Made by a program: the position numbers and the translations under genes
Shown: positions 1,279-23,866 of the stretch, piece after piece
Position numbering within the stretch: position 1 is the stretch's first letter
Layout: each line of letters opens with the position of its first letter
IMG/VR virus record: IMGVR_UViG_3300020395_000099
Coordinates: 1-24,219 of that record
Direction: 5' to 3' (one strand)
DNA: 24,219 bases
From: a virus
The notes under the pieces: generated by a model
What the model saw: only the letters and a program-made list of their open reading frames with translations
The model's database searches: none
Told to the model about the DNA's origin: nothing

Positions 1279-1642
1279 TAACAAAGGTACTGACAAAAGA
1301 TCATTAAATGTTCCACCACCAGCAAGAAATACACAAGATAACACACAAGCTGTTAGAAGAATGCCTGATGTTGCATATGGTGAACAACAAGCATTAACAG
1401 AACAACAAAAAGCTGCACCACTTCCAAAAGATACTTTGCCACAAGCACAACCTATGCGTAGGCGTATGCCAGAAGTAGATGTGTTTGCACAGACACAAAG
1501 ACCAAGTGAACCTGTTACATCAGGATTACCATTTGGTGCTGGTCCAGGTGCAGAAGAACCTTTAGAAAATACAAACGATATAATTTATGAGATGTATCGC
1601 TTAACAGGTGATAGCTATTTACTTAACCTTATTGATCAATGA
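1259..1642 (+). CDS. Disordered basic/Pro-Gln-rich small virion-region protein
   Basis: This 127-residue protein has low-complexity composition (Ser, Pro, Gln, Arg) and should be largely disordered up to a short helical C-terminus (NDIIYEMYRLTGDSYLLNLI). I chose the ATG at 1259 because GAGGAG at 1249-1254 sits just upstream; an ATG run at 1241 in the same frame has no such site. Two copies of a short motif are visible, RRMPDVAYGEQQALTEQQ and RRRMPEVDVFAQTQRP, followed by a segment like VTSGLPFGAGPGAEEPL. From memory, similar YGE...Q...APL and VT.G.P.G.GPG segments occur in uncharacterised small proteins next to portal or capsid genes of actinophages, so I take it as a real conserved phage protein of unknown role. 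It ends in an ATGA overlap with the next gene. Confidence 0.65.
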   Translation: MATRSSSNKGTDKRSLNVPPPARNTQDNTQAVRRMPDVAYGEQQALTEQQKAAPLPKDTLPQAQPMRRRMPEVDVFAQTQRPSEPVTSGLPFGAGPGAEEPLENTNDIIYEMYRLTGDSYLLNLIDQ

Positions 1643-4600
1643 ACACATATGGTATTTATGATGAGGACTTGTATGATGACAGCCAAGTTGTTCAGGCAAA
1701 AAGAAAATATAATAGACAAGTATCTGTAACACAAGAACAGGCAGATTATGCCTCAAATCTTGTTACACAATATCCAAACCTATCTCCATCTGTTGTAGTT
1801 GGTTTAACTAAATTAGGTTTAGATGTTAATGACCCTAAAGTACAAGAAATATTATTAAAAGATTATTTTGCAAAACAAGAACCTAACAACACACTTAAAC
1901 AATCATTGTGGGAAAAAACAAAAGAAAAAATTAAAGAACCATTTAGATATGCTTTTGCTGGATTTCAAGCTGCTTGGGAAGGTGGAGCACCAAGACTTGT
2001 TAGATACCTAGAAGCAAGACAACAAGGTCAATCACACGAAGAAGCTAGAAAAAATACATACACAGGACTAGGTGCTGCGTTACTAAAAGATGGATTTGGT
2101 GCAGAGTTAGGCACAGGCATACTTCCTGGTATTACAGATATAGAAGAAACTGATGAATACAAAAACCTAATTAGTAATGGTACTGATCCACAGAAAGCTA
2201 GAGAGTATGTGTTAAACAATGTTCTTGACCAAAATGTATATCAACTTGCACGACAGAGAGCAGAACAAGGTGTACAGTTTGTTGGAGAACGAGCAGAAAA
2301 ATTTAAAGAAGCAGGACTAGATCCAACAGTTACTATTGGTAGATATTTCTTTAAACCTTTTGATAAAATTGTAGAGCCAGGCACAGAAGCATATAACATT
2401 ATTACAGGTGTTATAGATGCAGCAGCCCAGTTGTTTTTAGACCCTACTGCTATTGCAACATTAGGTGTAAGTAAAGTTCGTAAAGGAAAGCAAGTATTTA
2501 CAACAATAGATGAAATAAAAAGTTTTGAACAAGCAGGATTAGTTAAAGGTGTTAGAAAAACATTACTTGGTCCTACTACACAAAAATTTTTAGCAAGTAA
2601 TAATGGTAGAAAATTTAAAGAGTTTTTATGGGAAAACGCAGATAATCCTAGTGAAATAATATCTCGTACAAGAGAAGGTATAAAAAGTCATAGTTTTTTA
2701 AATGAATTAAATAATCTTAAAAAAGCAAATCCTGGTTCTTTTGATGAAGTAGGTAATAGTTTAGTTACTAATTTATTAGATGATGCAACATTACTTGAAG
2801 TAACAAAAGGATATGTTCCTAAAAAAATAAAACAAGGAAACATACTTACAAAAGCTATGGAAAAAGCATATGGTCCACGCATAGTCGTATCTGATAAAGA
2901 TAGTGCTATGGTGCAACTTAATCGTTTTATAAGTCTTGCAAGTAAAAATGTAGATACAAGAAAAGAGTTTTTGACAAAAGCTATGGTTGCATTAGATGAA
3001 AAAGATTCTGTTACTGCTGTAAATAACTTGTTAGTAGATACTTTAGAAAACACAATGCGTGTAGAACTTACTGATGTATTAAAACCAAAACCAGGTAGTA
3101 GAACGCAAAAATGGATAGATGATGCAACAAGAGTTATGGCAAGTTATTCTGATGAAGGAAAAGAAGCAAAAGATGTTTTAGGTAAATACAATCAAGATAG
3201 TTCAGGAGTTGCATTACCAATAAATGATTTGATAAAAAAAGAATATGGTATAGAAGCAAATTTTTTAGTTAGACCAACAGTTACAACTCAATTAGCACAA
3301 GAAATATATTTACCAAATCCACGTGATGTTGTAAAAGCTACAAAAATATTAAACAGTAAATTAGGATCATATGGAGCTAATATTATTGACAATTTACCAA
3401 GAGATGTAACTACTAGATTTTTAGATAATTATTACAGCACTATATGGAAACCACTTGTATTGCTTAGACCTGCTTGGACAACAAGAGTAATTTTAGAAGA
3501 ACAGTTGCGTTTGATTACGGCAGGTGTAGCAACAGGAATAAATCACCCTTTATCTTTTATTGCAAGTATGTTTAAAAAAGAAAAAGGTTTCTTTTATCCT
3601 GAAGTAGGACTACTTGGATCTTTTGAAAATAACGCAGCTATGACAGATGCTCTTGCTTCACAAGTAGGAAGTCTAAAATCATTAAGGAGAAAATGGGGTA
3701 AAACAAGTCAATGGATTACTTTTGATAAAGTAGCTAATCGTAGTGAATGGGGTCAGTCAGCATTTAGAAATGTTATGCAATTATATTTTGACCCAGTAAG
3801 TAAAAGGTTAGCAAAAATACAAATGATAGATGACACAGCAGAAAAAGCAACAGCATTAAAAGCGTTTAAAAATGAAGTATTTGATAAAACATCTCCACTA
3901 AATAATCAAATACAAAAACTTACAGCATCTAAAAGCCACCCATTTTATGGTGCTGGATTAGATAGAGGATTAACAGATGAATTTATAGATTACATAAACG
4001 CTAATTTAGCTGCTACTGCTGGTGGTGTAGTAGAAGCAAATAAAGCTACTAAAGCTGCTAATTGGATTAAACAAGATGGTGATAAAAGATTATTAGATTT
4101 TATTGGTAGTGAAGATGCAAGATTTCTTAAAAAAGAATTTGATAATTTAACAGATATAGATAAAGCAAAGTATTGGGCTGGTGAACTAGATACAGAAAGT
4201 TACAATGCAATATCTGAAAGATTAGTAAAAAATCAAAAAAATGTAATTAAAGATTTTCTTAATGAATTTGATGATGTTTTACCAACAAGTGTAAGAGGAG
4301 AAATGCAAATTACAGCAGGTATTGAACAAAAATATAATGCAGTTGTAGATAAATTATTTAATAGCTTGATGGCTGTGCCTACTAATAAACTTTCCAGAGC
4401 ACCTGCTTTTAAATCTTTTTACTGGCAAAGTGTTGCACAAAATGCAAAGTTTGCAACTGATGATGTTTTACAAGCAATTATTAAACAAGCAAATGAAGCA
4501 GGTTTAGCAAAAGGACCAAAAGAATTACAAAAACTTTACAAACAAATAACAAGTGCAAAAGGTAATGCAGAGGGAATTACAGATATAAAATTATTTGACC

Positions 4601-6264
4601 AAATAGCTTCTGCTGATGCTTTAGGTAAAACAAAAGATTTACTTTATGACATAACAACTAAATCAAGATTAGGTAATGCAACAAGATCAATATTTCCTTT
4701 TGGTGAAGCATATGTAGAAATATTTTCTACTTGGGCAAGGTTGATAAATGCAGAAACAGGCAGACCTTTACGTAGAGTACAACAAGTTATAGAAGCAGGT
4801 AGAAAACCAAATCCTGTATTTGATGAAACAGGACAAAAAGGTTTCTTTTATAAAAACCCTAAAAATGGACAAGAAGTATTTGGTTATCCTGGTGAAGGAT
4901 TATTACAAAAATGGTATTTTAAAGATTTAGAAGAAGGTGGCGTAAATGTTAATATGCCTGTGTATCTTAGTTCTGTAAACATAGCAGCTAATGTAATACC
5001 TGGTTTTGGTCCTGTTATACAAATACCAGCAGCATATTTTAATTCAAGAGGATCAGCGTTTCTTAAAGAAGAAGGATTTTTACAAACATTAATATTCGGT
5101 GATTTTGCACCACCAAAAATTGGATCATTAGCAGACTTGCGTAGAACAGCAATACCTACTCCATCTTGGCTTACAAAATTTTCTAGGGCATTTGTACAAG
5201 AAAGTGATGAAGCTAAACGACAATATGCAAATACAACTATTGATGTTTATAAAGCTATGTTATATGCAGGACTTGCTAATGATAGTAACCCTGAAGCAGC
5301 ACAAATATCATTAGACCAAGCATCAGAGTATGCAAAGAAAATAATGTTAATTAGAGGTATATCACAGTTGCTAGGTCCTTCTGGTATTGCAACACCAGAG
5401 TATGAATTGACAGATGAAAATGGAAAACTGTATTTATTTGAACAGTTAGCAGATGAATACAGAAATATTAAGACAGCAGTTGGTGGAGATGATAGCGAAG
5501 CTACTGCAATATTTATAGAGAGATTTGGTTTAGACCCTGTTGCTTTAGTTACTTCTAAATCACAAAGTATTAAGAAAAGACCTATGACAGTTGATGGTGC
5601 TAACTGGGCTAGAGAAAACAAAGAGTTATATGAAAAGTTTGATAACACAGCTTGGTATCTAAATCCTGTAGATGAATCAGAGTTTTCATATGATGCTTAT
5701 TACAATGCTTTAATTAATGGCGATTTACAACCAAGAACAGCAGAAGAATGGTTAAGAGCTAAAAATAAATTACTTGGTTCTGTAGAGTACGAAAACTTTT
5801 TGCGTAAATACGAACTGCATAACAGAAGTGATAATGTAGCTTCTACAGCTAAAGCAAACAAACAAAAAGAGTTAATGTCTAAATACTGGGGATATGGTAG
5901 AGCAATACCACAATCTATGAATAAACCAGAAAATGAAGAAATAATTGAAGAACTTTATACTTGGATTGATCCTGTAACTTATGAAGTAGCAGATGAAATA
6001 AAAGAATACGATACTGCTGTTGCTTGGGCTGTATATGCTAAAGAAAGAGATAGAATAATAAAGAGGAGTGTAGAACTAGGATTTAGCGAAGAAGGTTGGA
6101 AACGAAGTAAATCTTTGTTACCATTTAGAACACATCTTAGAGGTGTAGCTGACAAATTAATTTTGCGTTATCCAGAGTTTGAAGCTATGTATAGAGATAT
6201 ACTAGAAGTAGAGTTAAGAGAAGAATATCAAGACTTGGCATTAATAGAAAGTTTAGGCAAATGA
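1639..6264 (+). CDS. Giant internal virion / ejection-type protein (1541 aa)
   Basis: The largest gene of the window, it starts in an ATGA overlap with the gene before. The protein is mostly helical and Lys/Asn/Ala-rich, with no signal peptide and no enzyme motif that I can name. Landmarks: TGVIDAAAQLFLDPTAIATLG near residue 260, LRPAWTTRVILEEQLR from residue 609, and a conserved-looking FPFGEAYVEIFSTWARLI from residue 1019 followed by GRPLRRVQQVIEAGR. Comparable blocks (RPAWTLR...E..LR and PFGEA...W.RL) occur in very large uncharacterised virion proteins of podophages and actinophages. Lying between portal and scaffold with a transglycosylase two genes on, it fits the set of internal proteins that leave the head with the DNA and form a channel through the envelope, as T7 gp14-16 do. 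That role is inferred from synteny. A tape-measure role is less likely because no tail-tube genes are present. Confidence 0.72.
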   Translation: MNTYGIYDEDLYDDSQVVQAKRKYNRQVSVTQEQADYASNLVTQYPNLSPSVVVGLTKLGLDVNDPKVQEILLKDYFAKQEPNNTLKQSLWEKTKEKIKEPFRYAFAGFQAAWEGGAPRLVRYLEARQQGQSHEEARKNTYTGLGAALLKDGFGAELGTGILPGITDIEETDEYKNLISNGTDPQKAREYVLNNVLDQNVYQLARQRAEQGVQFVGERAEKFKEAGLDPTVTIGRYFFKPFDKIVEPGTEAYNIITGVIDAAAQLFLDPTAIATLGVSKVRKGKQVFTTIDEIKSFEQAGLVKGVRKTLLGPTTQKFLASNNGRKFKEFLWENADNPSEIISRTREGIKSHSFLNELNNLKKANPGSFDEVGNSLVTNLLDDATLLEVTKGYVPKKIKQGNILTKAMEKAYGPRIVVSDKDSAMVQLNRFISLASKNVDTRKEFLTKAMVALDEKDSVTAVNNLLVDTLENTMRVELTDVLKPKPGSRTQKWIDDATRVMASYSDEGKEAKDVLGKYNQDSSGVALPINDLIKKEYGIEANFLVRPTVTTQLAQEIYLPNPRDVVKATKILNSKLGSYGANIIDNLPRDVTTRFLDNYYSTIWKPLVLLRPAWTTRVILEEQLRLITAGVATGINHPLSFIASMFKKEKGFFYPEVGLLGSFENNAAMTDALASQVGSLKSLRRKWGKTSQWITFDKVANRSEWGQSAFRNVMQLYFDPVSKRLAKIQMIDDTAEKATALKAFKNEVFDKTSPLNNQIQKLTASKSHPFYGAGLDRGLTDEFIDYINANLAATAGGVVEANKATKAANWIKQDGDKRLLDFIGSEDARFLKKEFDNLTDIDKAKYWAGELDTESYNAISERLVKNQKNVIKDFLNEFDDVLPTSVRGEMQITAGIEQKYNAVVDKLFNSLMAVPTNKLSRAPAFKSFYWQSVAQNAKFATDDVLQAIIKQANEAGLAKGPKELQKLYKQITSAKGNAEGITDIKLFDQIASADALGKTKDLLYDITTKSRLGNATRSIFPFGEAYVEIFSTWARLINAETGRPLRRVQQVIEAGRKPNPVFDETGQKGFFYKNPKNGQEVFGYPGEGLLQKWYFKDLEEGGVNVNMPVYLSSVNIAANVIPGFGPVIQIPAAYFNSRGSAFLKEEGFLQTLIFGDFAPPKIGSLADLRRTAIPTPSWLTKFSRAFVQESDEAKRQYANTTIDVYKAMLYAGLANDSNPEAAQISLDQASEYAKKIMLIRGISQLLGPSGIATPEYELTDENGKLYLFEQLADEYRNIKTAVGGDDSEATAIFIERFGLDPVALVTSKSQSIKKRPMTVDGANWARENKELYEKFDNTAWYLNPVDESEFSYDAYYNALINGDLQPRTAEEWLRAKNKLLGSVEYENFLRKYELHNRSDNVASTAKANKQKELMSKYWGYGRAIPQSMNKPENEEIIEELYTWIDPVTYEVADEIKEYDTAVAWAVYAKERDRIIKRSVELGFSEEGWKRSKSLLPFRTHLRGVADKLILRYPEFEAMYRDILEVELREEYQDLALIESLGK

Positions 6265-7265
6265 CAGTAGAACAGTTTATTGACAGATTAAAAAAAATAT
6301 TAGATACAGTTAATAACGAACAAATAGAAGGTCAAAATCAATTATTGTTATCTGAAGATGATGAGATACTTCTTAGAGGTGAAACTACTGTAGAAAATGC
6401 AATACTTAGAGCTAAGACTTTAAATCCTGCAATAGGTGTTTATGCTGACTTTGCAGCAAATCCTGAACAAAACATAGGAGATTTTGCAACAACAGATGCT
6501 AGTTTTGCAGCAGCAGAAGCATCAGTAATGTCAGGTTTTGGTGTAGGTCCTAGTTATTTAGGTGTTACAAGTGAGTATGTACCACCACAAGGTGGAACTG
6601 ATTTCTATACAGAAGAAGATAATATAACTTTATTTGCTGGTAAATCAACAGAAGAAATAGCAGGAATACAGGCAGATTTAGTAAATGCTAATTTATTAGA
6701 ACTAGGTGCTTTTAGACCTGGTGATTGGGATTTACAAACACAAAGAGCTTTTGCTGTAATACTTGCTAGAGCAAATAGATTAGGTGTTACACCAGAACAA
6801 AAAGCAAATGGTTCTAGGTGGAAAGAAGTATTAATTGATTACTCTCAAAATCCAACAACAGTTGTAAAACCTGAAGCAGTATATTTACCACCTGATTATG
6901 ATGCAGTTACACAACAAGTAAAAGGATTATTTAGACAACAACTAAATCGTGATCCAAAAGCATATGAAATGAAATTATTAGGTGATGTGCTTATGGCAGA
7001 ATCACAAAAAGCATTTGAATTACAAAAACAATTACAAGAAGATTTAGATGTAGATGTTACACAAGAACAATTATTTGCAGGAAGTTATGGTAATCACATA
7101 ACACCACAAGTAGAGCCAGGGGTAACAGAAGTATCTCCAACAGCAGCATTATATGAAAAGTTTGATAATATTACAGCAAAAGAACAAGAAAGGTTAGGTG
7201 CGAATCGTGATATTCAAGCCACTAATCGTATCATTCTTAATAGCATCACAGGTGCTCCAAGGTAG
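6261..7265 (+). CDS. Probable internal virion protein (334 aa)
   Basis: Coupled to the giant gene by an ATGA overlap. The N-terminal 130 residues are acidic and Ala/Gly-rich. A central block around residues 130-180 (IAGIQADLVNANLLELGAF, then RPGDWDLQTQRAFAVILARANRLG) has the helix-turn pattern of a peptidoglycan-binding-like or related small helical module: a residue string of IQ..L...LL....F.PG..D..T..A. A second block, VTQQVKGLFRQQLNRDPKAY near residue 215, resembles the 'F...L.RDP...E' segment seen in several phage structural proteins. A C-terminal acidic coiled-coil-like part follows. With the transglycosylase directly downstream, the two may act together at the cell wall; this is inference. 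The exact fold is uncertain. Confidence 0.62.
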   Translation: MTVEQFIDRLKKILDTVNNEQIEGQNQLLLSEDDEILLRGETTVENAILRAKTLNPAIGVYADFAANPEQNIGDFATTDASFAAAEASVMSGFGVGPSYLGVTSEYVPPQGGTDFYTEEDNITLFAGKSTEEIAGIQADLVNANLLELGAFRPGDWDLQTQRAFAVILARANRLGVTPEQKANGSRWKEVLIDYSQNPTTVVKPEAVYLPPDYDAVTQQVKGLFRQQLNRDPKAYEMKLLGDVLMAESQKAFELQKQLQEDLDVDVTQEQLFAGSYGNHITPQVEPGVTEVSPTAALYEKFDNITAKEQERLGANRDIQATNRIILNSITGAPR

Positions 7266-7269
7266 TATT

Positions 7270-8070
7270 ATGGAAAATGATATGAACAATGATAGCAACC
7301 CAGCATTAATAGATATATATTTAAAAGCATTAAAAATGCAAGAAAGTTCTGGTAATTATCAAGCAAAACACGAATCATCAACAATTACAGATATTGTAAC
7401 TGGTAAACCTATTAGAGTTCAAGCATTAGGTGCGTATGGAATACTAGATATAAATTGGTATGGAACTGAAACGCAAGAATCTTGGGCAGAACAAGCAGGA
7501 TATGAAGGTGCAGATATAAATGATCCTAAAGCACAAGATGCAGTTGCTAAATATAAAGTACAAGAATTTTTTAATAAATTTGGTTCTTGGGACGCTGTAT
7601 CAGTTGCTTGGTTTGCAGGTGATGGAACGGCAAAGGATTTAGTAGAAACAGGAACTATAGATTATTCTAAAGCAGATGTTAATGGTGTAGATATTAAAGA
7701 ATATGTAGATGAAATGAATATTAAAATTGGCGAAGAACTTATGAAAATGGAAGTACCAATGGAAACATTTACTTTACCTTCAACTGTTAAAGGTCCACCA
7801 ACTCCACCAGTTATAGCTAAACAAAAAGATATGCAAAGAGTATTTGCTGCACAAGTATTAGATGCTATGACTAAAGCAAATGCTGGTGGTATACGACCAA
7901 GTTTTGAATCACAAGTTCCAGCACAAGCAGGAGATTTTGCTGATAATGTTGTAAAAACACAAGTCTTAAGAGGAGATATTGGTCAAGATCCAGTACAAGA
8001 GGTTAATCAATACGCACAAACTGTAGAACAGGCATTTCAACAATACTTAGATGCAATAAACAATGGCTAG
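7270..8070 (+). CDS. Virion-associated lytic transglycosylase-like protein
   Basis: The first 120 residues carry the soluble lytic transglycosylase (goose-lysozyme-like) pattern: ESSGNY at 25-30 with Glu25 as the expected catalytic acid, GAYGI at 54-58 and AWFAG at 113-117. Such domains cleave the glycan strand of peptidoglycan, and in virions they open the wall for DNA entry. The second half is Gln/Ala-rich and helical (PPTPPVIAKQKDMQRVF, VNQYAQTVEQAFQQYL) and probably holds the protein in the virion. I chose ATG 7270, which is preceded by AAGG at 7259-7262. A GTG in frame at 7198 would add 24 residues with a hydrophobic, signal-like stretch but overlaps the upstream gene by 68 bases. The 3' end overlaps a zinc-ribbon microprotein gene. 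The place among internal proteins, apart from the lysis block, favours an entry enzyme over an endolysin. Confidence 0.82.
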   Translation: MENDMNNDSNPALIDIYLKALKMQESSGNYQAKHESSTITDIVTGKPIRVQALGAYGILDINWYGTETQESWAEQAGYEGADINDPKAQDAVAKYKVQEFFNKFGSWDAVSVAWFAGDGTAKDLVETGTIDYSKADVNGVDIKEYVDEMNIKIGEELMKMEVPMETFTLPSTVKGPPTPPVIAKQKDMQRVFAAQVLDAMTKANAGGIRPSFESQVPAQAGDFADNVVKTQVLRGDIGQDPVQEVNQYAQTVEQAFQQYLDAINNG

Positions 8071-20196: not shown

Positions 20197-20340
20197 ATGG
20201 ACTTCATTATTATATTTGCGTTAGGTTATTGTTTTAGAGATTTTACTTCGTATCTAAAAAACTTAGTTAATTATCAACAACTAACAATAGATGATTGGGA
20301 CACAGAATTTGAGGAATGGCAATCTGATGACTTACCCTAA
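20197..20340 (+). CDS. Small membrane-type protein (47 aa), leaderless start
   Basis: A 47-residue frame from ATG 20197 to TAA 20340. The N-terminus MDFIIIFALGYCFRDF is hydrophobic and could be a short membrane anchor; the C-terminus is acidic and Trp-rich (TIDDWDTEFEEWQSDDLP). It has no ribosome binding site, but an extended -10 lies at the spacing that puts the transcript start on its ATG. Its end overlaps the next gene by 14 bases, so it probably leads the lysis and membrane operon. I do not recognise a family. A lysis-timing or membrane accessory role would fit the setting but is unproved. Confidence 0.6.
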   Translation: MDFIIIFALGYCFRDFTSYLKNLVNYQQLTIDDWDTEFEEWQSDDLP

Positions 20341-20518
20341 CAACAACGGCTTTACACAAAAGGAAATGTTGAATTTAATATTGGAAGGACAACAAGATAT
20401 AAACAAACGCATAGATCAACTACACGAAAAGGTTAATCAAAAGATTTCAAGACAAGAACTAAGTGGGTGGCTTGTAGCTATCTCTGCATTGGTGGTGCTT
20501 ATAAACAACTTAATGTAA
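20327..20518 (+). CDS. XhlA/holin-like small coiled-coil membrane protein (63 aa)
   Basis: I take ATG 20327 as the start, with GAGGAA at 20311-20316 ten bases before it; the ATG at 20291 in the same frame has no site. After a short polar N-terminus comes a coiled-coil helix (MLNLILEGQQDINKRIDQLH, residues 14-45) and a C-terminal membrane helix (GWLVAISALVVLINNLM, 47-63). This order and size match XhlA-type accessory holins and similar lysis proteins, which sit in the inner membrane. The stop overlaps the start of the large secreted-protein gene (TAATG). The family call is from topology only. Confidence 0.6.
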   Translation: MTYPNNNGFTQKEMLNLILEGQQDINKRIDQLHEKVNQKISRQELSGWLVAISALVVLINNLM

Positions 20519-22488
20519 TGTTTCGTTTATTACTGTCTGTCCTTTTACTAATACCACTACCCTTACTCGCTAATGAAACAGAAGTTACTGTTACAGAAAC
20601 ATTTAACGATCAGCAAATAAACGAAGATATACAGTTTGTTTATGGTGGTAATGATACAGTTGTTTCTGCTTCTACTACATCACACCCTGAATGTGCCTCT
20701 ACGCACCCAACAGATAGTGCAGGAACTATAGGAATAGAAGATTTAGATTGTTTTGGTGCTATGTATTTTGGTACAGACAGACATCAATTAGGCATTCGTG
20801 CTAGTGCAGATACATTAACTATTGCTTTTCCTAACTCTGATAGCAAACCTATTACAGAAGTAGGTTTTGTTTATAATGCTAGAGAAAGCACAGGTACTGC
20901 AACTGTATATTTTGACAATGATGAAACTCAAACTATTAATTTAATAGATACGCAAACTGAAACTGACCAAACTGCAAGTGTTACTGTAACTGCACCAACA
21001 GGTACAACAATAAATGAAATACAAGTACCAGGAGTTTCTTCAGGTAATGATTGGTGGCTCATAGATAATGTATACTACAAGTATGATAATGTATCTACTA
21101 CAACGACATCTAGTACGACAACAACTACTAGCACCACAACAACGACTACTACCACGACTACAACGCTACCTAAAGCAGAAGATGTCGTGGAAGATAATAT
21201 CACTACCTATCTTGCTTGGGATCAAGATGGTTGTGAACACCCTGACAACCCTCTTTCGTACAGACAATACCTTGAAGCAGTAGAAAGTGGAGATTGGTTT
21301 GGTTATCAAAGTGGTGATTGCTCTGACATACCTGATGTTATTACTATTGTTATCGCAGAAGAAGAACAGGAGATAGAAGAAAATGAAATACTTGAAGAAG
21401 ATATGGAACTTGATGGACTTGATGATTTGGAATTACCAGAGGAAGAAGTCATTGAGGAACTTAGTGAAGAAGAAATAGCTGCTATTGAGGCAGAGATTGC
21501 AGGAGAGGAAGAACGGCTGATTCAAGAACAACTAGATGTTGAAGAAGAATTACTTATACTAGAAGAATTAGAAGATAGTGTAATCATACTAGAGGGATTG
21601 ACAGAGGAAGAACTAGAAGAATTTGTAGATGTTATACAAGAAATAGAAGATACTATTGAAATTATAGAGATTATAGAGGAAGTCATAGAGATAGACATAC
21701 CTGAAGATATAATTGTAATAGAGATAGAGGAAGATGAGGTTATAGAAGATGACATTGTTATTGTGGTGGAAGATGAAGAAGTTGATGAGGAAGTTTTGGT
21801 TGAGCCAGTACAGGAAGATGTTGAGGAGAAACCTAAAGAAGAACTTTCTGAGGAAGAAATCGTTGAAGAACTTGCTGAAGTTGAAGAAGTCATTGAGGAA
21901 ATTATAGAGATAGAGATTGTTGAGGAAGATTTAACAGAGGAAGAAATAGAAGAAGTTATTGAGGAGTATGTAGAAGAGCTAGAAACAGAAGAAGTTATAG
22001 AGGTTCTTGAAGAAGTTAATGATGTTGGTGTACAAAATTTAGAAGAAGTGTCAGAAGAAGTCCAGGAAGTTATCCAGGCAGTAGTAGAGGAAGCTATAGA
22101 AGATGTTGAAGAACTTACACAGGAGCAAGTTGAGGTTGTTGCTGATGTATTACAAGTTGAAACTGAAGATGTTGCTATCGTTGCAGAGGCGATTAAATCA
22201 GACGAAGTAGTAGCTGAAGCAGTAGAAGAATATGTAGAGAGAGCAGTAGAGAACGCTGATGTAGAGGATTACACACTTGCTGATGTTGTTACAGAGGTAC
22301 AGTATGAATCATTTTTAGAGAATCCAATAGAAGTATTAGTAGATTTCGACAATATAACAGAGATAAATCTATCAAACATATCTAATGATATGACACAAGA
22401 TCAAAAAGAAAAAGCACAAGAAGTCGTAGTTCCTGTAATCTTGACTAGAATAGCTAGTATGGCAGCATTTATATTTAGGAAAAGCTAA
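20518..22488 (+). CDS. Secreted/anchored protein with Thr linker and long Glu-rich region (656 aa)
   Basis: Start at ATG 20518 in a TAATG overlap; this start gives a clean signal peptide (MFRLLLSVLLLIPLPLLA, cleavage near residue 18). Residues 19-190 form a beta-sandwich-like extracellular domain with cysteines (HPECAST, EDLDCFG) and a closing DWWLIDNVYYKYD, like carbohydrate-binding folds. Residues about 193-216 are nearly all Thr and Ser, a flexible and possibly glycosylated linker. A short Cys-containing module follows (WDQDGCEHPDNPLSYRQYL, YQSGDCSD). Residues 278 to about 590 are extremely Glu/Ile/Val-rich with EEVIEI-type repetition, probably long acidic helices. The last 25 residues (VVVPVILTRIASMAAFIFRKS) could anchor it in the membrane. 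Poly-Thr linkers and Glu-rich secreted proteins are typical of small marine Actinobacteria. It might be a virion appendage, a host-surface or exclusion protein, or a lysis factor; I cannot choose. Confidence 0.75.
   Translation: MFRLLLSVLLLIPLPLLANETEVTVTETFNDQQINEDIQFVYGGNDTVVSASTTSHPECASTHPTDSAGTIGIEDLDCFGAMYFGTDRHQLGIRASADTLTIAFPNSDSKPITEVGFVYNARESTGTATVYFDNDETQTINLIDTQTETDQTASVTVTAPTGTTINEIQVPGVSSGNDWWLIDNVYYKYDNVSTTTTSSTTTTTSTTTTTTTTTTTLPKAEDVVEDNITTYLAWDQDGCEHPDNPLSYRQYLEAVESGDWFGYQSGDCSDIPDVITIVIAEEEQEIEENEILEEDMELDGLDDLELPEEEVIEELSEEEIAAIEAEIAGEEERLIQEQLDVEEELLILEELEDSVIILEGLTEEELEEFVDVIQEIEDTIEIIEIIEEVIEIDIPEDIIVIEIEEDEVIEDDIVIVVEDEEVDEEVLVEPVQEDVEEKPKEELSEEEIVEELAEVEEVIEEIIEIEIVEEDLTEEEIEEVIEEYVEELETEEVIEVLEEVNDVGVQNLEEVSEEVQEVIQAVVEEAIEDVEELTQEQVEVVADVLQVETEDVAIVAEAIKSDEVVAEAVEEYVERAVENADVEDYTLADVVTEVQYESFLENPIEVLVDFDNITEINLSNISNDMTQDQKEKAQEVVVPVILTRIASMAAFIFRKS
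21094..21168 (+). repeat. Poly-Thr/Ser codon tract (ACN-rich microsatellite-like)
   Basis: A run of ACA, ACT, ACG and ACC codons with a few AGT/AGC/TCT codons, coding a Thr/Ser linker. Mixed synonymous codons show that it is held by selection for the amino acid as well as by slippage. Confidence 0.85.
21349..22300 (+). repeat. Degenerate Glu-rich repeat region (GAA/GAG, EEVIEI-type)
   Basis: About 950 bases of imperfect repeats of GAGGAAGAA, GTTATAGAG and GAAGAAGTT, encoding alternating Glu and Val/Ile/Leu. It contains many GAGGA sequences that look like ribosome binding sites. A Ser-rich frame on the opposite strand is only its shadow. Confidence 0.8.
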
Positions 22489-22670
22489 TGATTAAGAAAT
22501 TATGGTCTTGGTTTGTTGAAGCAATTAAAGAAACACTAAATCTTAGTTGGACTTTAGTTGGTTTAGTTATTGCAACACTTACACTAACTGGTTCTGCCCA
22601 GCAAATCACAGGTTTAGCGACTATAATTACTTTAGGCGTATGGTTATTGACCATAGGTTTTAGAAAGTAA
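22488..22670 (+). CDS. Small two-helix membrane protein, holin candidate (60 aa)
   Basis: Coupled by TAATG, with AGGA at 22477-22480. A basic amphipathic N-terminus (MIKKLWSWFVEAIKETLNL) is followed by two hydrophobic helices (about residues 20-35, WTLVGLVIATLTLTG, and 41-57, TGLATIITLGVWLLTIG) with a short loop and the basic end FRK. The size and hairpin topology are those of small holins or antiholins. A second, more typical holin lies 1 kb downstream, so this could be an antiholin or an accessory membrane protein. The conserved part cannot be told from sequence alone. Confidence 0.6.
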   Translation: MIKKLWSWFVEAIKETLNLSWTLVGLVIATLTLTGSAQQITGLATIITLGVWLLTIGFRK

Positions 22671-22674
22671 TTAA

Positions 22675-22887
22675 ATGGAAGCAAAAGTTAATTTAAGTCA
22701 GATACTGCAAGGTGGTTTAGCTGCCTTAGTTGGTTGGCTATTTAAAACTGTTAATGATTTGCAACAAGAAGTAGCAACACTTAAAGCACAAGTGTCTGCT
22801 TATCAAGAATCTATTGCAGGATTTAATCAAAATCTAATAGTAATAGAAGAAGTTATTAGAGAAATATTATTTAAGGTAGGTGGATAA
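22675..22887 (+). CDS. Small membrane-anchored coiled-coil protein (70 aa)
   Basis: Starts four bases after the previous stop. Residues 10-23 (ILQGGLAALVGWLF) are hydrophobic and could be a membrane segment; residues 24-68 form a long coiled coil (VNDLQQEVATLKAQVSAYQE, NLIVIEEVIREILFKV). The topology is the reverse of the 63-aa protein at 20327, whose coiled coil comes first. Spanin- or XhlA-like lysis accessories have such plans, but no family is recognised. It ends in TAATG with a tiny Cys-rich frame. Confidence 0.6.
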   Translation: MEAKVNLSQILQGGLAALVGWLFKTVNDLQQEVATLKAQVSAYQESIAGFNQNLIVIEEVIREILFKVGG

Positions 22888-22925
22888 TGGACTGCTGTGG
22901 TAGTGGTTGCTGTGGTGGTTCTTAA
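22887..22925 (+). CDS. Cys-rich micropeptide, 12 aa
   Basis: The frame reads MDCCGSGCCGGS, with two CC pairs three residues apart. Its ATG shares TAATG with the stop of the gene before, and its TAA again overlaps the ATG of the next small frame, so re-initiating ribosomes could translate it. It is too short for a fold but could bind metal or form disulfides. It may also be a mere link in a coupling chain. Real translation is uncertain. Confidence 0.4.
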   Translation: MDCCGSGCCGGS

Positions 22926-23014
22926 TGTGCATATCATATATTGATGAGAAAGGAACTCACATTAATATATGTGATTGCAAGTTTGGAGATATAGGTGAAA
23001 TTACAAGTTGTTAG
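22925..23014 (+). CDS. Cys-containing microprotein, 29 aa
   Basis: Begins at the ATG of a TAATG overlap and runs to TAG 23014, overlapping the lysin gene start by 20 bases. Cysteines at residues 2, 16, 18 and 29 (CISYIDEKGTHINICDCKFG) could bind metal or oxidise. Its last part is set in another frame by the ribosome binding site and start of the lysin gene, so it may end there for coupling reasons. No family recognised. Confidence 0.42.
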   Translation: MCISYIDEKGTHINICDCKFGDIGEITSC

Positions 23015-23585
23015 AACACAGTTTGGTACTGATGCAACAAATGGTTTGTTGTTTGTAAATGGAGTGTTTGAAAATTATACATTAGAAGATCAATACCAGG
23101 CAGTAAAAGTTATGCACGAAACCTGCATACCTGAAGGAACATACGACATAAAGTTTAGAACTGTTGGTGGATTCCACGAGAAATACAAGAAAAGATATGG
23201 TAATGACCATTATGGTATGTTGCATTTACAAGATGTACCTAACTTTACTTATATACTTATACACGCAGGAAACACAGATGAACACACATCAGGTTGTTTA
23301 ATTGTAGGAGAAACACAACAAGATTTAGACCTAAGTGATGATGGATTTATAGGGCATAGTGGCGTAGCATACTCAAAATTATATAAAAAAGTAGCAAAAG
23401 AATTATTGTTAGGAAAGAGTGTAACAATAGAGTACACAACAATAACTAAATTATTAGAAAAACCTTTAGAGGAAGCCTCTAGTACAGACATAGGTGTTGC
23501 TAAAGATGTTATGGAGAAATTACAAGAAATTAATGGTAATGTTATACAGACACAGACTATGTTGAGAGGTAGGATAATTAGATAA
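22995..23585 (+). CDS. DUF5675-like protein, putative endolysin
   Basis: Starts at GTG 22995 with GGAG at 22985-22988, six bases before. Residues 1-145 form one domain with the DUF5675 pattern: RTQFGTDATNGLLFVNG, YTLEDQ near 29, IPEGTYDIKFR near 45, and the key LIHAGNTDEHTSGCLIVG at 88-105. His90 and Cys101 in an H.GN....GC context recall the His/Cys pair of L,D-transpeptidase-like folds. Members are often encoded beside holins and are thought to act on cell-wall peptides; this activity is not proved for the family as far as I know. The C-terminal 45 residues are a helical, coiled-coil-like tail (AKDVMEKLQEINGNVIQTQ). The stop overlaps the holin start (TAATG), a typical lysin-holin pairing. 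It is the best endolysin candidate in the window. Confidence 0.72.
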   Translation: MKLQVVRTQFGTDATNGLLFVNGVFENYTLEDQYQAVKVMHETCIPEGTYDIKFRTVGGFHEKYKKRYGNDHYGMLHLQDVPNFTYILIHAGNTDEHTSGCLIVGETQQDLDLSDDGFIGHSGVAYSKLYKKVAKELLLGKSVTIEYTTITKLLEKPLEEASSTDIGVAKDVMEKLQEINGNVIQTQTMLRGRIIR

Positions 23586-23866
23586 TGTTTGAAAGATATA
23601 AAAGAGCAAGAAACCAAGATGGTACATTTAAGAAAGATGTATGGTGGACACCTTGGTCTGATTCGTGGGAGTATAAAATGAGTGAAGATCTCAAAGATAT
23701 GCTTGAAAGAACTGCGTGGACCTTTATTGAAGCCTTTATTGGGGCTTTAACAGTAGCTCCATTGGTCGGTGTTGAGGCAGAAACACTTCAACTAGCTGCA
23801 TTAGCTGGTGGTGGTGCTGCACTTGCAGTTATCAAGACATATGCTAAAAAACAAATCACTAAGTAG
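23585..23866 (+). CDS. Holin, r1t-like
   Basis: 93 residues, coupled by TAATG to the putative lysin. The N-terminus (RARNQDGTFKKDVWWTPWSD) resembles the 'R..DG.F..D...TP...EAW' tails seen in actinophage proteins. Then DLKDMLERTAWTFIEAF leads into the first membrane helix (about 44-63), followed by an acidic turn (VEAETLQ) and a second helix (68-87, Ala/Gly-rich) ending in a basic tail (KTYAKKQITK). The pattern 'LERT.WTF..AF......' with two helices matches the phage r1t holin family. Holins oligomerise in the inner membrane at a set time and release or activate the endolysin. It ends the lysis operon; the next promoter follows 20 bases after the stop. Confidence 0.82.
   Translation: MFERYKRARNQDGTFKKDVWWTPWSDSWEYKMSEDLKDMLERTAWTFIEAFIGALTVAPLVGVEAETLQLAALAGGGAALAVIKTYAKKQITK

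Follow-up and report, generated by a model that had tools for sequence, protein, structure and literature searches.

A modular exported protein and its two-transmembrane partner in the lysis cassette of uncultured phages: a candidate envelope-disrupting factor

What might a phage gain from a secreted, strongly acidic protein of more than 600 residues encoded next to its lysis genes? The question is raised by a window of 24,219 bp (the whole stretch of viral DNA analysed here, an IMG/VR record), in which portal, SU10-type major capsid protein, tail and fibre genes are followed by a lysis cassette. An ORF check of the window confirmed the reading frame of the gene under study, called here the main gene, and its parts are compiled below.

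Architecture and export of the main protein

20518..22488, +: main gene, encoding an exported, acidic, modular protein of 656 residues
20518..20571, +: Sec/SPase I-type signal peptide, residues 1-18, conserved among relatives, no lipobox
20572..21090, +: predicted N-terminal jelly-roll β-sandwich resembling carbohydrate-binding modules (CBMs), residues 19-191, with cysteines C59 and C78
21091..21168, +: poly-Thr/Ser linker, residues 192-217
21169..21327, +: Cys-bracketed segment, residues 218-270, C239/C268, with the motif YLAWDxxGCEHPxNPLSY...GDC
21328..21972, +: Glu-rich stalk, residues 271-485 (~215 residues), 38% Glu
21973..22485, +: conserved C-terminal domain, the hallmark of the family, residues 486-656
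22420..22485, +: C-terminal hydrophobic segment, residues 635-653, with the short cationic tail RKS; proposed membrane anchor

A longer frame starting at GTG 20467 is unlikely, since ATG 20518 overlaps the upstream stop by 1 nt (TAATG) and begins the signal peptide. The N-terminus of the main protein is signal-peptide-like (MFRLLLSVLLLIPLPLLA, followed by NETE), and its h-region and AXA-type (SPase I-type) site are kept in 68 of the 69 relatives compared, none of which carries a lipobox within its first 40 residues. The number of mature cysteines, taken as those after residue 22, is even (0, 2, 4 or 6) in all 121 unique complete relatives, which as related sequences are not independent observations; 115 of them have 2, 4 or 6, usually 2 or 4, while the other Cys-containing ORFs of the same loci divide into 101 with even and 129 with odd counts. 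An even count is the pattern of disulfide-bonded exported proteins and supports export at the level of sequence. At the other end of the chain, the best C-terminal 19-mer (EVVVPVILTRIASMAAFIF) has a mean Kyte-Doolittle hydropathy of 1.89, close to the family mean of 1.85, and is followed by RKS, with RRS, RKS or similar residues at this position across the family. This arrangement would suit a type I membrane protein, although the segment holds Pro and Arg, so that it may form an amphipathic helix instead of a transmembrane (TM) span.

Between the two ends, Thr makes up 77% of the linker, the net charge of the mature protein amounts to -172, and both the length of the stalk and the middle segments differ across relatives, some of which have another segment in place of the Cys-bracketed one. 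The original prediction had described a signal peptide, a likely binding domain, a poly-Thr linker, long acidic helices and a hydrophobic C-terminal end, and had likened the product to host cell-surface proteins. Export was borne out by these comparisons, the linker is as described, a binding-type fold is predicted for the N-terminal domain (below), and the hydropathy profile fits a surface or membrane topology; the acidic character of the long middle part likewise stands, but its helices are weakly supported, because the full-length AlphaFold2 model is poor (pLDDT 49.7) and unusable outside the N-terminal domain. Profile matches of the C-terminal domain in the PDB were weak and helical (a colicin E3 fragment, designed bundles). 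Pfam, NCBIfam and PADLOC gave no match for the main protein or for TM60, the product of the next gene, and PHROG gave insignificant matches only; for the main protein this includes the defence and exclusion models of PADLOC, a collection of defence systems that does not cover all exclusion proteins.

The family is large. A whole-protein scan returned 57 related viral loci and a scan of IMG/VR with the C-terminal domain at least 589 related stretches, while none of the 50,697 phage records of INPHARED matched the main protein or TM60. The last 170 residues are 53-98% identical to those of the window, mostly above 70%, although in many of these phages the major capsid protein is only ~32% identical to the window's. 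Median dN/dS values are ~0.13 for the C-terminal domain, 0.12 for TM60 and 0.31 for the N-terminal domain, with synonymous sites near saturation; low dN/dS at such sites marks the cassette as old and constrained, and on these substitution patterns the main gene is judged to be real and under constraint. Hundreds of viral contigs carry the module, which is better conserved than the capsid protein and is without a described relative.

The N-terminal domain and its exchange

The AlphaFold2 model of the N-terminal domain, built from 31 sequences, is a jelly-roll β-sandwich (pLDDT 80.6, pTM 0.77). Its best structural match is CBM61 (Z 11.2, rmsd 3.4 over 137 residues), followed by CBM8 (Z 10.9), CBM29 (10.6) and CBM22 (~9.9), the matches to CBM29, CBM22 and CBM8 spanning Z 9.5-10.9; MAM-type and other jelly rolls also lie near the model. 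CBM61, CBM29, CBM22 and the MAM-type jelly rolls share the fold of the domain at Z ~10-11 with ~4-15% identity in the structural alignments, but CBMs sit on an enzyme, whereas this domain would sit on a membrane stalk. Neither a Pfam match above cut-off nor a PDB profile match was obtained for it. The model suggests a carbohydrate-binding-type domain; since the fold is common to many binding domains, glycan binding is suggested rather than proven.

Exchange of this domain is a prominent feature of the family. Two unrelated-looking β-sandwich classes account for 42 and 27 of 71 complete proteins, the second being putatively FN3-like with weak Pfam hints, and the window and one relative (L016) exemplify a pair with near-identical C-terminal and differing N-terminal domains. 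The original prediction had raised acquisition from a host surface protein, with codon use as a check. Recent acquisition of this kind is disfavoured: codon use and GC3 of the main gene fall inside or close to the values spanned by the remaining genes of the window, and the N-terminal domain is confined to the family architecture, the C-terminal domain being present in the same ORF at all 56 testable loci found from the N-domain search. A genome scan with two middle-segment peptides, too narrow a query to be decisive on host copies, had as its only match a phage contig of this group (L059; PAEL01000130, MAG MED855) inside a gammaproteobacterial MAG, a placement that is probably binning contamination because only phage genes are recognisable on the contig.

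In this context, the possibility of a virion component, a tail fibre or decoration, has to be considered, as the gene comes shortly after the fibre genes and some tailspikes contain jelly rolls of this kind, among them CBA120 TSP4, which matches the model with Z 10. This possibility, likewise listed in the original prediction, is highly improbable in view of the conserved signal peptide, the strictly even cysteine count, the TM-like segment at the C-terminus and the obligate TM partner. Nor did the N-terminal domain turn out to be a known phage tail module, the finding that had been named as decisive against the prediction, since its likeness to the tailspike reflects a common carbohydrate-binding fold. 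An adhesin, by which infected cells or debris would be held together or attached to particles for more contact with new hosts, is very unlikely. Such a role would agree with the predicted CBM-like domain, and with the Thr linker and acidic stalk, which resemble those of bacterial surface adhesins; it leaves the obligate linkage to the lysis cassette unexplained.

The main rival to a role in lysis, although in our judgement a rather unlikely one, is superinfection exclusion or receptor masking, in which the lectin-like domain and the acidic brush would block adsorption or DNA entry by other phages, or would keep progeny from re-adsorbing to debris. A surface protein anchored in the membrane and bearing a variable binding domain, as the sequences suggest, fits this rival well, as does the relaxed constraint on the N-terminal domain (dN/dS 0.31). 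Its similarity is furthermore associated with that of the upstream fibre region when the C-terminal domain is controlled for (partial r 0.20, permutation p 0.0005). The association, significant as it is, is weak, and one and the same type of N-terminal domain is often paired with unrelated fibres, which speaks against simple receptor mimicry; the idea that the domain mirrors the adsorption fibre was accordingly dropped. Exclusion is further opposed by the position of the gene among late lysis genes beside the holin, from which its product would act late, and by the finding that the same slot can hold a coiled-coil rod that has no binding domain. Membrane exclusion proteins exist, for example Ltp of phage TP-J34 (PMC11676413). 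Like the main protein as proposed here, Ltp is encoded by a phage and attached to the membrane at the cell surface. It is, however, a prophage lipoprotein, whereas the main protein belongs to a late lysis cassette and carries a CBM-like domain. Should exclusion nevertheless apply, the family would represent a surface-exclusion system of a lytic cassette with variable lectin-like domains.

TM60 and the neighbours in the lysis cassette

The genes around the main gene, together with a protein found in related cassettes, are the following:

20291..20518, +: TM75, a 75-residue coiled-coil protein with a C-terminal TM segment, present in 31 of the 39 loci that extend far enough upstream
22488..22670, +: TM60, a 60-residue two-TM hairpin and obligate partner, with stop/start overlap with the main gene
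22675..22887, +: 70-residue protein with an N-terminal TM segment and a coiled coil, found in a minority of loci (6/102)
22995..23585, +: DUF5675 protein with an L,D-transpeptidase-like motif, presumed peptidoglycan enzyme of the cassette
23585..23866, +: holin, PHROG 443 (3.1e-6), also weakly r1t-like
L349:3331-3864, L324:1981-2514 and L360:3833-4339: coiled-coil protein of 168-177 residues

The upstream stop codon within TAATG, mentioned above, is that of TM75. TM60 follows the main gene in all 102 loci with more than 3 kb of downstream sequence and is 70-98% identical in most of them; a reciprocal search from TM60 found the gene for the C-terminal domain directly upstream in 66 of 66 testable loci, and at 103 of 122 junctions the stop and start of the two genes overlap by exactly 1 nt or 4 nt. 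Some contigs recur and some loci are closely related, so that these locus counts, like those that follow, do not represent independent events.

The assignment of the region to a lysis block, as originally proposed, is supported by the downstream DUF5675 gene (Pfam 2.9e-28) and the holin, which are present in 98 and 95, respectively, of the 102 loci with enough downstream sequence. Conversely, the main gene lies upstream in 69 of 72 testable DUF5675 loci, ~4% being without the pair. The DUF5675 protein keeps the motif HxGN...GC (conserved H90, G92, N93, G100 and C101), and one annotated relative is named L,D-carboxypeptidase/transpeptidase.

The close linkage of the pair invites a further alternative, according to which TM60, with TM75, would be a holin/antiholin and the main protein an extracytoplasmic sensor or clamp that frees the holin when the wall or a surface ligand changes. 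The tight coupling of its translation to that of a two-TM hairpin would be in keeping with such control of lysis timing, and two-TM holin-like proteins with N-in/C-in topology, such as LysF1a, are known from actinobacteriophage cassettes (PMC13056207). Nonetheless, nearly all of these loci (95/102) already encode a holin apart from TM60, and a variable surface protein of 600 residues would be a costly regulator, so that we regard this alternative as improbable.

In three cassettes that lack the pair, the 168-177-residue protein, with an N-terminal TM segment and a long acidic coiled coil, occupies the slot that separates DUF5675 from the small TM genes. Its topology is that of an i-spanin, and both its length and its topology agree with those reported for LysZ of corynephages. 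It is a candidate for the i-spanin- or LysZ-like protein of these phages. The pair is absent from 13 of the 15 loci that encode it; strict replacement was rejected, because L012 and L434 carry both, and two cassettes (L391 and L423) have neither.

Some small reading frames were observed in the same region. A 12-codon micro-ORF (MDCCGSGCCGGS; window 22887-22925, +) overlaps the stop of the 70-residue gene (TAATG), and of 238 unique regions, 88 contain a form close to M[DE]CCGxGCCGG[K/S/R] in the 500 nt that precede DUF5675, in 51 distinct nucleotide sequences that differ largely at synonymous positions, a pattern by which the frame is recognised as a conserved tetracysteine micropeptide. A second small Cys-containing ORF (MCISYIDEKGTHINICDCKFGDIGEITSC; window 22926-23015, +) follows it and recurs in a few relatives.

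Phage group and proposed role in envelope disruption

Portal, terminase and capsid sequences point to actinobacterial phages. The portal of a 44.6-kb relative matched 31 phage records at ~24% identity, 29 of them from Streptomyces (FlowerPower among these) and two uncultured, the best-listed matches of its terminase are mostly Streptomyces phages, and the capsid protein of the window has its best matches in Mycobacterium and Propionibacterium phages (47% and below). A marine origin is presumed from the relatives and the original prediction, and the GC content is 34.5%; the hosts are likely marine ‘Ca. Actinomarinales’, for which putative phages with comparable GC have been described (PMC3861242, PMC5628999, PMC7771536), and the group as a whole, abundant and uncultured, probably infects marine actinobacteria. 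WhiB, sought as a host marker in 15 relatives, was not found and is uninformative. A main flexible genomic island devoted to cell-wall and surface-polysaccharide genes is reported for Actinomarinales, in which an outer membrane is judged unlikely (PMC7771536).

Tentatively, and with somewhat less than even confidence, we propose that the main protein is a membrane-tethered, glycan-binding lysis factor resembling spanins or LysZ. A wall-acting lysis factor was among the options of the original prediction, and it is the one that the evidence favours. Export signal, N-domain fold, gene pairing, cassette position, domain swapping and constraint were computed; membrane topology, glycan ligand, the complex with TM60 and the lysis role are what we infer. 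An envelope-breaking role appears most likely because the membrane partner is constant and the cell-bursting genes adjoin, and the near-exclusion with the coiled-coil protein, together with the lysis neighbours, the putative membrane topology and the CBM-like tip, makes a spanin- or LysZ-like role the best supported.

The protein would be expressed late and exported through Sec, its chain running from the signal peptide through the swappable β-sandwich, the Thr linker, the disulfide-bracketed segment, the acidic stalk and the conserved domain to the anchor. The β-sandwich would be displayed at the outer face of the host envelope and the poly-acidic stalk would span the wall, while the C-terminal TM anchor would rest in the membrane with its cationic tail in the cytoplasm, most likely assembled there with the co-translated two-TM protein TM60. 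Once the holin and the DUF5675 enzyme had opened membrane and peptidoglycan, the protein, bound to envelope glycans by its tip and to the membrane by its anchor, might disrupt or strip the remaining surface layer, and virions would be released.

Several points weigh against this lysis role. The likeness to spanins and LysZ is drawn from architecture and published description rather than from sequence or structural homology; the pair and the coiled-coil protein occur together in two loci and are both missing from two others; the C-terminal segment with its Pro and Arg is perhaps amphipathic rather than TM; the position in the cassette would equally fit another kind of late surface protein; and host and envelope type are themselves inferred.

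Among the closest known systems is LysZ of the Corynebacterium phages CL31 and Cog: a one-TM protein of 177 residues, it is reported to act on lipid-anchored glycans and to help lysis (PMC13056207). It shares with the main protein the association with lysis and, as far as our proposal goes, a single anchor, a chain mostly outside the membrane, actinobacterial hosts and action on envelope glycans. LysZ is N-in/C-out, whereas the main protein appears to have a cleavable signal peptide and a C-terminal hydrophobic segment; it also differs from LysZ in its CBM-like domain, its acidic chain of 600 residues and its obligate two-TM partner, and the 168-177-residue slot protein is nearer to LysZ, which is known here by its published description. 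The unimolecular spanins of the T1 gp11 type have in common with the main protein export, a presumably distal N-terminal part, a C-terminal TM domain (in the main protein a putative one) and a place in the lysis cassette, the last being one of the features by which spanins are recognised. They carry, however, an outer-membrane lipobox, which this family of a host probably without outer membrane lacks, and a periplasmic cysteine was found in none of 58 u-spanins (PMC6139136), whereas cysteines are present in 115 of 121 relatives here; membership in the u-spanins was rejected on both grounds. The Beephvirinae (Streptomyces phages, e.g. FlowerPower), with distantly related portal and terminase, have a similar gene order, small holin genes following the tail block, but neither the exported protein nor TM60 had a counterpart in any of the phage records searched. 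The proposed job thus has precedents, and the architecture, as far as these searches show, has none.

A more specific form of the lysis role, conceivable though doubtful, is a new two-gene ‘glycan spanin’ in which an exported acidic stalk with interchangeable lectin-like tips and a two-TM partner would serve phages of walled hosts that lack the usual outer membrane, breaking the surface glycan layer; the tips would be exchanged following the diversity of host surface polysaccharides. How phages of monoderm or actinobacterial hosts overcome layers outside the peptidoglycan is a largely open question, with LysB and, recently, LysZ as known candidates. If the lysis role holds, the family would add a further, testable solution with swappable binding tips, which could in turn probe the surface glycans of marine actinobacteria.

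Two further observations concern other parts of these genomes. Tandem ORFs of ~170-200 residues lie between tail genes and lysis cassette in three relatives (L173, L175 and L180) and are possibly alternative tail-tip or adhesin units. At window positions 1639-6264 and 7198-8070, a 1541-residue protein, only 26-31% identical among relatives, lies beside a protein recognised by eye as lytic-transglycosylase-like; the two are probable DNA-ejection proteins of a podovirus-like actinophage.
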